From: Rhodospirillaceae bacterium
GTDB lineage: Bacteria > Pseudomonadota > Alphaproteobacteria > Rhodospirillales > Rhodospirillaceae
DNA: 64,000 bases
Assembly (NCBI GenBank): GCA_004297485.1
Contig: SCTM01000314.1
Coordinates: 1 to 64,000, forward strand
Direction: 5' to 3'
Part shown: positions 15,655 through 21,417 of the stretch, in pieces
Layout of the letters: each line of letters opens with the position of its first letter
How positions within the stretch are numbered: position 1 is the stretch's first letter
Translations under genes and position numbers: made by a program
The notes under the pieces: model-generated
Databases searched by the model: none
Seen by the model: only the letters and a program-made list of their open reading frames with translations
Told to the model about the DNA's origin: nothing

Positions 15655-16029
15655 TCAGCCGCAGTACAGGCCGACGACGCGCCCGTAATTGTCGAGTTCG
15701 ACGTTGAGGCGGACAGGATCTTGCTCCGGACTCAAACGGGCGTGAGGCGGTATAATGCGATACGGCGCGGAAACACTTTCCTCGCGCACGAACGCTCCCG
15801 TTGCGGGCGGATCACCGCCGCGCGGCACAAATATCATGCCCAGCGCCGGTACCAGCACGTGACCGCGGCAAGGCTTGAGAAGTTCCGGCAGGACTGGTTG
15901 ACGAATAACGGGCGGTGGTGGCGGCATGCTTTCCAACGGCGTGTAAAGGTGCCTGCCTTTGATAGTTGTCCCACACCCTGCGATAAACACCGCAATGAGT
16001 GCCGCTAACATAAAGCGCGTCGCGTTCAT
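15655..16029 (-). CDS. small lipoprotein with I78-like C-terminal motif
   Basis: signal peptide with lipobox IAGC; APYRIIPPHARLSPEQDPVRLNVELDNYGRVVGLYCG; TGATG junction with hldE. Confidence 0.6.
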   Translation of the reverse strand: MNATRFMLAALIAVFIAGCGTTIKGRHLYTPLESMPPPPPVIRQPVLPELLKPCRGHVLVPALGMIFVPRGGDPPATGAFVREESVSAPYRIIPPHARLSPEQDPVRLNVELDNYGRVVGLYCG

Positions 16030-17522
16030 CACTTCCGCCCCGAGCCTTCCGTCTTCAACGCCGCAATGGTCGCGGTGGTGGAATGGGAGTCCACCAGATC
16101 TGCCAGCACGACACGCCCGCCGTATGATTCAACAAAGTCGCCGCCGACCACGGCGGCGCGGGCATAGTCGGCCCCCTTGACCAACACATCCGGCCGCAAC
16201 GCCTCGACCAAAGATTGCGGCGTATCTTCGTCAAACACAACCACTAGATCGACGGAGGTCATGGACGCCATCACCGTCGCCCGGGCGGCAGCGGTCTGAA
16301 CCGGGCGGCCTTCGCCCTTCAAACGCTTGACCGACGCATCGCTGTTGAGACCCACGATCAAGCGGTCGCAGGCTCCGCGCGCTTGGCGCAAGAGCGCCAC
16401 ATGACCGGGATGGAGAAGATCGAAGCAGCCGTTGGTAAAACCCACGCGCAGGGACTGGCGGCGCCAAGCCTCTGCCTTTGCGGCGGCGCTGTCCCGGTCG
16501 GCGATCTTTTGCTCGAATCCGGCGATGCCGGTATGCACGAGGGCCGCGGAAATTTCGGCGACGGTCGCAACCGCCGTACCACGACGACCGACAACGATTC
16601 CGGCGGCGACGTTCGCCAGACGCGCAGCATCCCGTAAGCGCGCGCCGCAGGCCAGCGCCATGGCAAGGGTGGCGACGACCGTATCCCCGGCGCCGGTGAC
16701 ATCGGCGACCTCGCGGCCTTCCACGGCCAGGTTTTCCGCCGCGTCTTCGACGAGAGTCATGCCTTTGTCGGCGCGGGTCACAAGGATCGCGGCGGCGCCC
16801 GTCGTCTGGCGCAAGCGCCGCGCCGCATTGATCAGTTCCTCGTCCGTAGCGACAGGCGATCCGGTGGCTTCCGCCAGCTCGGCGCGATTGGGCGTGATCA
16901 CCGTTGCGCCGGCATAGCGCGTGTAATCTGTCCCCTTGGGATCGACGATGACCGGTTTATGCGCCGCCCGCGCCGCGGCGATAATCGCGGCGGCCAGGTC
17001 TTTGCCGAAAACGCCTTTAGCGTAGTCCGACAGGATGACTGCGTCGCAAGTGGCCAGCGCCGCCAGGGCGGCCTGCCGGAGATCGGCGTCGTCTTCCGGC
17101 GCCAACGGCGCGCTGGTCTCGCGATCGGCGCGCAGCAGATGATGGCCGTCACTGGAAAAAAAGCGGCTTTTGACGGTGGTCTCGCGATTCTCGGAGACGC
17201 GGAGTGAAAAGTCGGTGCCGTGGAGTTCGGACAGCAGGCGTCGCACTTCGACACCGGCCTGATCCTCTCCCACGACAGAAACGAAGTACGGCAGGCCGCC
17301 GAGGGCGGCGAGATTGCGCACGACGTTCCCCGCACCGCCCAACGCCAGGGATTCGCGCGTGACTCGCACCACGGGCACGGGCGCTTCCGGGGAGATCCGC
17401 TTCACATCGCCATAGATAAATTGGTCGACCATGACATCGCCGACACAGAGCACGCGCCGCCCGGCGAAACCGGAGAGAAGCGCCATCAGAGCGGCCGGAT
17501 CGAAGGCGGACGGGGTGCTCAT
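16029..17522 (-). CDS. hldE: bifunctional heptose-7-phosphate kinase / heptose-1-phosphate adenylyltransferase
   Basis: PfkB-type kinase domain (DVTGAGDTVVATLAMALA) plus nucleotidyltransferase (VGFTNGCFDLLHPGHVALL). Confidence 0.96.
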   Translation of the reverse strand: MSTPSAFDPAALMALLSGFAGRRVLCVGDVMVDQFIYGDVKRISPEAPVPVVRVTRESLALGGAGNVVRNLAALGGLPYFVSVVGEDQAGVEVRRLLSELHGTDFSLRVSENRETTVKSRFFSSDGHHLLRADRETSAPLAPEDDADLRQAALAALATCDAVILSDYAKGVFGKDLAAAIIAAARAAHKPVIVDPKGTDYTRYAGATVITPNRAELAEATGSPVATDEELINAARRLRQTTGAAAILVTRADKGMTLVEDAAENLAVEGREVADVTGAGDTVVATLAMALACGARLRDAARLANVAAGIVVGRRGTAVATVAEISAALVHTGIAGFEQKIADRDSAAAKAEAWRRQSLRVGFTNGCFDLLHPGHVALLRQARGACDRLIVGLNSDASVKRLKGEGRPVQTAAARATVMASMTSVDLVVVFDEDTPQSLVEALRPDVLVKGADYARAAVVGGDFVESYGGRVVLADLVDSHSTTATIAALKTEGSGRK

Positions 17523-17573: not shown

Positions 17574-18512
17574 CTATGCCGCCATCTGTTGGCGGAAGTA
17601 GGCGATGGTTTGTTTCAATCCCTCCTCAAGAGGAACCGAGGGTTCCCATCCCAGGACCTGGCGCGCCTGACTGATATCCGGTTTGCGGCGGGTGGGATCG
17701 TCTTGGGGCAACGGCTTGTTCACCAGCTGCGAGCGCGAGCCGGTCATGGCGATAATCTTCTCCGCCAACTCGCGGATCGTGCTTTCGACGGGATTGCCCA
17801 AGTTGATCGGCCCGGTGACCGTGTCCGGAGATTCCATGAGACGGATAAGCCCGCCGACGAGATCGTCGACAAAACAGAACGAACGGGTCTGTTGGCCGTC
17901 GCCATAGATCGTGATGGGTTCGCCCTTGAGGGCCTGAACGATGAAGTTGGACACCACCCGGCCGTCGTTGGGCAGCATACGCGGGCCGTAGGTATTGAAA
18001 ATGCGCGCCACGCGAATGCGCAGGGCATGTTGGCGGTAATAGTCGAAGAACAGGGTTTCGGCGCAGCGCTTGCCCTCATCATAACAGGCCCGGGGACCAA
18101 TGGGATTCACGTTGCCCCAATAGCTCTCGACCTGTGGGTGAATCGCCGGGTCGCCATAAACTTCGCTGGTCGACGCCTGAAGGATCTTCGCCTTGGTCCG
18201 CTTGGCCAGCCCGAGCATATTGATCGCGCCATGAACGCTGGTCTTAGTAGTCTGGACCGGATCGAACTGGTAATGAACGGGCGACGCGGGGCAGGCGAGG
18301 TTGTATATTTCGTCTGTTTCAATATAAAGGGGAAACGTGACGTCGTGACGTATCAATTCGAAGTTTGGGCGGCTGAACAAAGACTCGACGTTGGCACGGC
18401 GTCCGGTAAAGAAATTGTCGATACACAACACTTCATGACCGGCCGCGACCAGGCGCTCGCACAAGTGCGAGCCGATGAACCCGGCTCCCCCGGTGATGAG
18501 AACGCGTTTCAT
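17574..18512 (-). CDS. NAD-dependent nucleotide-sugar epimerase, UDP-glucuronate decarboxylase-like
   Basis: [57 protein letters not shown]. Confidence 0.9.
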
Positions 18513-18826
18513 GGAATTCCCCTTTTCACGGTCGCGCATCAGCCCGCGCGGACATGACATCGATACTAATTGTTAATCTTTTCCAAATGGTTACGATGCT
18601 AGAGTTGTCATCAGAGCGGGGTCAGATCGACGCGACTCCTTCCGGGGGCGGATGGCAGCACGTCATGGCCAGCGATTTGCGGCCGTGGATCCGTCACCGT
18701 CGCCCCCACCAGGCATGCGATTCGAGGATGACGGGTACGGATTTGAAGAATGTACCGTTTTTTGCAGCCCGCACGCGGCCTGAGCGCTACGCGCGCCGCA
18801 GCAACCGGTATTAGGACGCGGGCGGC

Positions 18827-20029
18827 ATGAACCAAGGCGCGAAAGGATATCAGGAAACCCTGCTGGTCGACACGCTCGACCGCATGCGCCGCAACCCTGA
18901 AGGCCGCAAGGTCTTGCAGCTGCGCCTGTCGCAAATGCTGCCTCACAACCGCACCCCTGTGCGCCTGAAGATTCTCACCCGGATGTTCCGGTCCCTGGAA
19001 AGCGGCCGTCAGATCCAGATTTTTTCCATGACCAACGGCGATCTGGTCATCATCATCAACAGCGGCGCGCAGCGGGACGTGCAAAACATCGTCCACCGCA
19101 TTCGCACGCTTTTCGAGTCCGATCCCATCACCATGGCTGACGCCGGCGGCGAGCAGGACCGGTTCGCGTTATGGTTCGATCTTTCCCTCGATGCGGCGAT
19201 GGCGATGCACGCCGCCCAGGAATTGCGCACCGAGGCACAGAGCGCCGTGCCGCGCCAGATGGGAATGGTTCTTCCGCCGCTCACGCCGCAGCTGCTTGAC
19301 GAGGTACAAAAGAAGCTGGCCTTTGCCAATGTCGTGCCGTTTGTCCGCGATCAACCGGTCCTGCGGGTCAATGCGGCAACCCATGAAGCGGCGATCGAGT
19401 TCTATGAATTCTTTCTGTCGGTGCAGGATTTGCAGCGCTCGGCCGCGCCAACCATCAATCTGCTCGGCGACCGCTGGCTGTTTCAGGATCTCAGCCGCAC
19501 CATGGATCAGCGCATGCTGGAAACGGTTGTGCGCGCGCCCCATGCTCGGGAAGCCCCGGCACTGAGCCTCAATCTCAATCTCGAAAGCGTCATCACCTCG
19601 TCGTTCGCCACATTTCTCGACCGGATCGAAAAAGGACACAAGGTGATCGTCGAGGTACAGGCCGTGGACGTCTTCACCAATCTGTCGCTCTATCTCGACG
19701 TTCAGGGCGCGCTGCGCGGCGCCGGCCACGCCATCCTCATCGACGGATTGACGATCGGGACCTTGCGGCTGATCGACGTGGCACAACTCAAACCGGATTA
19801 CGCGAAAGTTGCGTGGGCCCCGGAGTTGGGGGAAGCCAGTGGTCGCGGCGGTACCCAGGTACTCCACGAGCTGGTCGCGGCCGTCGGCGCGGGCAAGGTG
19901 ATCCTGTCACGCTGCGAGTCCGCAATCTCACTTGCGTTCGGACTGAAGACCGGCATTACGCTGTTCCAAGGCCGGTTCCTCGATTCGCTTAAATCCGGAC
20001 GGCGCAAACCTGCGCCGCGGCCGGTATAG
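18827..20029 (+). CDS. uncharacterised protein with degenerate EAL-like C-terminal domain (paralog 1)
   Basis: LSLNLNLESV...KVIVEVQAVDVF...LRGAGHAILIDGLTIGTLRLIDVAQLKPDYAKVAW...VILSRCESAISLAFGLKTGITLFQGRFLDSL. Confidence 0.7.
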   Translation: MNQGAKGYQETLLVDTLDRMRRNPEGRKVLQLRLSQMLPHNRTPVRLKILTRMFRSLESGRQIQIFSMTNGDLVIIINSGAQRDVQNIVHRIRTLFESDPITMADAGGEQDRFALWFDLSLDAAMAMHAAQELRTEAQSAVPRQMGMVLPPLTPQLLDEVQKKLAFANVVPFVRDQPVLRVNAATHEAAIEFYEFFLSVQDLQRSAAPTINLLGDRWLFQDLSRTMDQRMLETVVRAPHAREAPALSLNLNLESVITSSFATFLDRIEKGHKVIVEVQAVDVFTNLSLYLDVQGALRGAGHAILIDGLTIGTLRLIDVAQLKPDYAKVAWAPELGEASGRGGTQVLHELVAAVGAGKVILSRCESAISLAFGLKTGITLFQGRFLDSLKSGRRKPAPRPV

Positions 20030-20037
20030 GTTAGGTA

Positions 20038-21291
20038 GTGGCAATGGCCGAAGCACCCGCCGCATCCACCGCCAACCCGCTGGGTAATACCCATGAAGCG
20101 CGGCTGCTGGAGGACATGAAGCAGCTTGACGTGGGAATGCGCAACAAAGGCGCGATCCGCCTGCATCTTTCACGCCTGTTGCCGGAAACCCGCACGGTCC
20201 AGAATCTACGCAGCGCCGAGGTTGCCTTTGAGGATTTGACCAAGACCCGGGCGGCTTGGCTTTACCGCCTGCGCAACAGCGACCTCATGGTGATCTTCGA
20301 GCGTGACCAAACCGATCTCGCCGAACGCGCGGTGCTCAAGCTCCTGAAGCTGTGGGAGCGCGATCCCCTGATGCAGAAATTCAAGACCGATGCGCGCAAG
20401 AACCGCCTGACGAGCTGGTTCGATCTGGAAACGGACTACGACAAGCTGTTGGCCTTCGCCCATCGCCAGGCGGCTTCATCCGACACGGCCCGGTCGAAAA
20501 GTCTGCAGCAGCTCATCGTCGAGCGCGAGCATCGCGTGACTGATCCGGAGCGCGGTCAGCCGTTGACGCCGCTTGAACTGTCTAAAGTAGAAGACTCGCT
20601 CGTGCGCGTGGATCTGTCGAGCTTCACCCGCCGGCAGGCCGTGTGTGCTTTCGTCGAGGACGGCAAGGCCGAACTGGTGTTTACCGAGTTGTTCGTATCG
20701 ATCGCCGATCTGCGTGAAACGCTGATGCCGCGAACCGATATGACCGCCAATCCATGGCTGTTCCAGCGCCTGACCCAGACCCTGGATCGACGCGTGATGG
20801 CACAGATCGCCCGGCGCGAGGACAAGACGTTGCTGCGCGAGGCCTTCAGCATCAACCTCAACGTCCAGACTCTGCTGTCGGAGGAGTTCATCGCCTTCGA
20901 CGAGGATTTTGCGCCGACCAACAACGATGTGATTCTCGAGATGCGTCTGGAGGATATTTTCTCCGACCCGGAGAGCTTCACCTTCGCCCGCGATTTTGTC
21001 ATCGAACGCGGATACCGTTTGTGTGTCGACGGCCTGACCCTGCAGACCTTTCGTTATGCGGATCCGGATCGCCTGGGTGTCCACTACATGAAGCTGATGT
21101 GGACCCGCGATCTGGCCGGATGGATCGGCACTACGGTCGGCCAGGAAATGAAAGCCATGATTCGCGAGCGCAAACGCGGACGCACAATCCTGGCGCGGTG
21201 TGATTCCGAGGCCGCGATTCAAGTGGGGCGGCAACTCGGCATCACACTGTTCCAGGGCCGCTACATCGATAGTCTGGTTCGCGGACGCTAG
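20038..21291 (+). CDS. uncharacterised protein with degenerate EAL-like C-terminal domain (paralog 2)
   Basis: FSINLNVQTLL...DVILEMRLEDIF...GYRLCVDGLTLQTFRY...YMKLMW...TILARCDSEAAIQVGRQLGITLFQGRYIDSL; aligns with paralog 1 along its length; GTG 20038 or ATG 20044. Confidence 0.7.
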   Translation: MAMAEAPAASTANPLGNTHEARLLEDMKQLDVGMRNKGAIRLHLSRLLPETRTVQNLRSAEVAFEDLTKTRAAWLYRLRNSDLMVIFERDQTDLAERAVLKLLKLWERDPLMQKFKTDARKNRLTSWFDLETDYDKLLAFAHRQAASSDTARSKSLQQLIVEREHRVTDPERGQPLTPLELSKVEDSLVRVDLSSFTRRQAVCAFVEDGKAELVFTELFVSIADLRETLMPRTDMTANPWLFQRLTQTLDRRVMAQIARREDKTLLREAFSINLNVQTLLSEEFIAFDEDFAPTNNDVILEMRLEDIFSDPESFTFARDFVIERGYRLCVDGLTLQTFRYADPDRLGVHYMKLMWTRDLAGWIGTTVGQEMKAMIRERKRGRTILARCDSEAAIQVGRQLGITLFQGRYIDSLVRGR

Positions 21292-21417
21292 ACGAGGGGC
21301 GGCCGGATGCCGCAACCAAGGCCGTCGTGCCGGCGGACAGCCGACGCCGCCACAGAAGTGACTTAGTTCGCAACCAATATCACGCCTGCATCGTTGAAAC
21401 TCTATCGGAGCTTCTCC

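Follow-up and report, generated by a model that had tools for sequence, protein, structure and literature searches.

Two adjacent genes of a Rhodospirillaceae bacterium, here called A and B, encode a conserved pair of degenerate GGDEF-EAL proteins, in which one half of the EAL active site is kept and the other half is gone. Both lie on the plus strand of the 64,000-nucleotide stretch of DNA that was analysed (the window). On balance, A and B probably serve the c-di-GMP network as paired effectors that form a heteromer and bind a ligand without hydrolysing it.

Gene pair and domain architecture

Gene A (400 amino acids, positions 18827 to 20029) and gene B (417 amino acids with a GTG start, positions 20038 to 21291) were delimited as open reading frames and assigned as degenerate GGDEF-EAL proteins with BLASTP, Pfam, AlphaFold2 and Foldseek. 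The reading frames are separated by 8 bp, and the proteins are 29% identical over 388 amino acids (BLASTP E 1e-49, far beyond chance), as an earlier sequence-only reading of the window had held in calling them tandem paralogs 8 bp apart. No named family in Pfam or NCBIfam scores above cut-off with either protein, a search of PHROGs gave no match, and a literature search found no paper on the family. A published survey (PMC9756655) of alphaproteobacterial proteins detected with Pfam does not use the word 'degenerate' in its text. Scanning for promoters and terminators gave no signal above chance.

The EAL relationship of the C-terminal halves, proposed from motif order in the same reading, is borne out by Pfam, Foldseek and hhalign (P 7e-9). 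The Pfam EAL model (PF00563) matches residues 221-384 of A (E 1.4e-5) and 242-410 of B (E 2.6e-5), both under its gathering score, and is matched by 43 of 45 homologues, a divergent set drawn from across the class that includes two divergent paralogues from the organism's own genome. Searching the sequences of the PDB with A led to EAL structures (E about 0.002); with B only chance-level matches were obtained. The divergent EAL domain occupies about residues 154-390 of A (19286 to 19996, plus strand; Pfam, Foldseek and hhalign) and about residues 178-416 of B (20569 to 21285, plus strand; Pfam, Foldseek and the family alignment).

The N-terminal half of each protein is, from its model and alignments, a degenerate GGDEF domain, at about residues 8-140 of A (18848 to 19246) and 19-146 of B (20092 to 20475), both on the plus strand. 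It had been taken for a novel module, a view that has to be given up because A and B match solved GGDEF-EAL structures as whole proteins. The AlphaFold2 models, built as monomers from alignments of only 12 sequences (pLDDT 79 for A and 77 for B), show the order helix-strand-helix-helix-hairpin-helix-strand followed by the EAL barrel, the alpha/beta order with the hairpin that characterizes the GGDEF fold. For both proteins the best Foldseek matches in the PDB are complete GGDEF-EAL modules (E 1e-11 to 1e-9, about 420-450 aligned columns), among them MorA (4rnf), PA0861 (5xgb, 5xge), LapD (3pjw, 6pwj) and PA0575 (5m3c). TM-scores are only about 0.4-0.46 and the rmsd is large, which a different arrangement of the two domains would lead one to expect. 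When the family was aligned by hhalign with four GGDEF-EAL proteins from the organism's own genome, the match ran over 407 columns (P 2.8e-9).

That alignment places TNGDL of A (residues 69-73, 19031 to 19045, plus strand) on the GGDEF signature; RNSDL of B (residues 79-83, 20272 to 20286, plus strand) follows from hhalign combined with the family alignment. The column of residue 72 in A holds Asp in 44 of the 45 homologues. The GG(D/E)EF signature of an active diguanylate cyclase is replaced in this way, and no RxxD I-site was seen on inspection at the usual spacing. Pfam gives no direct GGDEF match for A, B or any of the 45 sequences; two A orthologues have a weak GGDEF_2 match (best E 0.0095).

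Half of an EAL active site

The phosphodiesterase PA3825 binds metal 1 through Glu39, Asn98, Asp130 and Asp160; its ligands for metal 2 are Asp161, Asp183 and, with calcium, Glu217 (PMC5301497). The SxN, ELTE, DDFG, KID, AEGVE and QG positions had already been mapped from sequence alone, and hhalign against canonical EAL proteins from the same genome confirms that mapping; seven such proteins there have EAL, DDFG, KID and EGVE-type motifs intact. Another protein of that genome (contig C348:83583-84263, L129; 564-residue frame) likewise has intact EAL motifs and carries GDGKF at its GGDEF position.

All metal-1 ligands are present in 45 of 45 homologues. In A, on the plus strand, these are E194, the Glu of the EAL motif within YEFFLSV (19406 to 19408), its role taken from PMC5301497; N249, the Asn of SxN (19571 to 19573); E276, the first Glu of ELTE (19652 to 19654); and D306, the first Asp of DDFG (19742 to 19744). 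Equally invariant are Q176, the catalytic lysine of KID, K327 (19805 to 19807), and the QG motif Q381-G382 (19967 to 19972). B keeps the corresponding E217 (within TELFVSI), N273, E301, D331, K352 and Q406-G407. N249, E276 and D306 were assigned by hhalign together with motif spacing, and E194 and Q176 by strand order (E194 also by its invariance), since hhalign places that hairpin poorly. The sequence-only reading had thought the EAL motif lost; its glutamate is in fact retained throughout. It was right that several catalytic residues have disappeared, among them the metal-2 ligands. The second DDFG Asp is Gly in A and in 39 of the 45 homologues; among the residues listed it is never Asp, and neither the KID Asp nor the EGVE Glu occurs there. 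Metal-2 ligands and EGVE Glu thus score 0/45. Loss of the EGVE Glu is a published criterion for an inactive phosphodiesterase (PMC12900916), and catalysis is presumably lacking in A and B.

A second loss concerns the ExLxR motif, which is said to decide whether inactive EAL domains bind c-di-GMP (PMC10333796). Its Arg is replaced by Ser in 38 of the 45 homologues and is kept in none. With this arginine and the metal-2 site both gone, A and B could be a pure protein-interaction scaffold in which the EAL fold binds proteins and no nucleotide and the kept residues are structural, much as YdiV and STM1697 are EAL proteins that neither bind nor hydrolyse c-di-GMP (PMC10333796). Such a scaffold would have no need to retain canonical EAL active-site residues, yet of the ten invariant columns eight hold them (simple hypergeometric count, p 5e-13), and this explanation is somewhat unlikely, if worth keeping in mind.

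The same invariance of the metal-1 ligands and the lysine would also suit a repurposed phosphodiesterase. Here an Arg found in 39 of the 45 homologues at the EGVE glycine position, in an SRC(D/E) motif, would sit at or near the metal-2 position, and the one-metal site would hydrolyse something other than c-di-GMP, e.g., the end of an RNA or a linear dinucleotide. A mechanism with a single metal was at one time suggested for EAL domains (PMC5301497), but the current view is that they require two or three, and the absence of the EGVE Glu and of every metal-2 ligand makes hydrolysis by A and B distinctly improbable. The idea that the arginine takes the place of metal 2 is speculative. The reading preferred here, a pair that binds without hydrolysing, predicts ligand binding because the metal-1 pocket is invariant; c-di-GMP itself is a doubtful ligand because the ExLxR Arg is missing.

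Distribution, pairing and neighbours

The family is present in 65 of the 74 GTDB-family genomes, in 220 of the 249 sampled from the order (about 88%), mostly in two copies, and in 94 of 289 from the class, many of them single-copy. Outside the Alphaproteobacteria all matches to the family profile are weak (E above 1e-12) and lie within the EAL region. A and B stand side by side on one strand in 19 of the 20 order-level loci fetched, and the gap within pairs ranges from -1 to 52 bp. In a tree of the 45 homologues, A and B fall into separate clades (support 99/96 and 99/99), each with one member of every pair, which points to one old duplication kept as a unit. The single-copy relatives mostly score nearer B than A. 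A and B are best described as products of a single ancient tandem duplication, that of a cytosolic GGDEF-EAL protein, usually kept as an operon. The earlier proposal of a signalling pair is supported in so far as the two genes are a conserved unit plausibly engaged in c-di-GMP signalling.

Further members of the family occur in the organism's own genome. Two divergent paralogues on minus strands, on contigs C210 (L043 5394-6623) and C271 (L042 2183-3418), keep the metal-1 residues; the former is separated by 646 bp from a canonical PAS-GGDEF-EAL gene downstream of it (L043 2529-4748), and the latter just reaches the Pfam EAL cut-off (31.3 bits). In some metagenome-assembled genomes an A or B gene has a disrupted frame (L001 7213-8475, L007 5905-7177, L038 1068-2274), through either genuine decay or an error in sequencing.

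Where hardly any GGDEF enzymes are left, the family drops out, a correlation across species. Within the GTDB family none of the 11 genomes with at most four GGDEF domains has the pair, against 59 of the 63 that exceed this number (p 3e-10); among genomes matched for size (2.3-3.9 Mb) the counts are 0/6 and 39/43 (p 1.5e-5). The cut at four domains was chosen after these data had been seen and was reused unchanged on the rest of the order, where counts tabulated by hand from listings give any family member in 11 of 29 genomes at or below it and 177 of 184 above it (p 2e-13), or 2/12 and 131/137 among genomes at least 90% complete (p 4e-10). The losses cluster in some genera and are not all independent, and co-loss could mirror a general reduction of signalling. 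One reduced genome (G069), with a single GGDEF domain, has only a 90-residue stretch of the family left, with two stops. The clearest exception to co-loss is a single-contig genome (G031) with 37 GGDEF domains and no family member. Flagellin is much more weakly associated with the pair than GGDEF domains are (p 0.004), and nine pair-bearing genomes have no detectable flagellin, so a flagellum-specific role is a weak candidate.

CsrA occurs in 1 of the 74 GTDB-family genomes, and the source genome is not the one that has it. This bears on a further explanation, that A and B are RNA-decay factors like CsrD, which targets CsrB-type sRNAs for RNase E. CsrD has the same degenerate GGDEF-EAL architecture, and B matches the NCBIfam CsrD model weakly (E 0.007), with a score of 14.7 against a cut-off of 663; A and B are without the membrane/HAMP part of CsrD. 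A mechanism through CsrD and CsrA is excluded by the absence of CsrA from 73 of the 74, the source genome among them, and a CsrD-like role of any kind is hardly credible.

Divergently upstream of the pair, on the minus strand, lies a gene for a UDP-glucuronate decarboxylase-like protein (UXS, 17574 to 18560), and beyond it one for an HldE/RfaE-like bifunctional heptose kinase/adenylyltransferase (16029 to 17522, also minus strand); both were annotated as part of a conserved neighbourhood. UXS and/or HldE genes are near the pair in 19 of 19 tandem loci sampled across the order, mostly divergently upstream, and also near three single-copy loci of the family. These surface sugar genes hint at a link between the pair and surface sugars, or else at mere old synteny. 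A gene for a SYLF lipid-binding protein does follow B, from about position 21394, as had been noted, but as a neighbour it is not conserved, with a homologue at only 5 of 41 loci examined, and a functional link to it was rejected.

Proposed role and known relatives

Degenerate GGDEF-EAL proteins are known receptors. In the mechanism proposed for A and B, one cytosolic protein with GGDEF and EAL domains would have been duplicated in tandem to give the two genes, and both enzymatic functions would have been lost, the one by change of GGDEF to TNGDL or RNSDL, the other by loss of every metal-2 ligand from the EAL site. A and B would then work together as a heteromer, without hydrolysis; a complex between them is suggested by operon structure and co-inheritance. 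Many relatives outside the order are single-copy, and therefore the heteromer would not be needed for the basic function. The one-metal EAL pocket would bind a nucleotide carrying phosphate, be it c-di-GMP, its product pGpG or a related molecule, and a change in conformation or assembly would be passed to partner proteins, perhaps ones that deal with the cell surface.

A bolder version, which must be considered quite unlikely, would make the family a new EAL subfamily. One metal and the SRC(D/E) Arg would replace the two-metal centre, and an obligate A-B heteromer would bind or process a nucleotide other than c-di-GMP and report on the c-di-GMP network across the order.

Should A and B prove to be a hub that binds a ligand, they may form a central part of c-di-GMP signalling in these bacteria that has been overlooked; surveys that count c-di-GMP proteins by Pfam cut-offs would be apt to leave the family out.

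Among known systems, YdiV and STM1697 are inactive EAL proteins, and catalysis is predicted to be lost in A and B as well. YdiV consists of an EAL domain only and binds no c-di-GMP (PMC10333796), whereas A and B have a GGDEF remnant and a metal-1 pocket. With the canonical phosphodiesterases PA3825, RocR and BlrP1 the pair has the metal-1 ligands, the lysine and the QG motif in common; unlike them, it is without metal-2 ligands, EGVE Glu and ExLxR Arg.

In CsrD both domains are degenerate, as in A and B, and RNSDL of B resembles the CsrD motif, HRSDF. In LapD and FimX both domains are again degenerate, and domain order and fold are the same, in keeping with the LapD structures among the top matches of both proteins. 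A and B differ from LapD and FimX in being two genes of an operon, and neither a HAMP domain nor any other membrane part was seen in them. The pair shares its architecture with LapD, FimX and CsrD but departs from the first two in ExLxR and, with CsrA absent, from the third, which requires it. LapD (with KVL) and FimX (without DDFGTG) have dropped metal-site residues and kept ExLxR-type binding; the A/B family has done the opposite, keeping metal 1 and losing the ExLxR Arg, and has done so uniformly across much of the Alphaproteobacteria.
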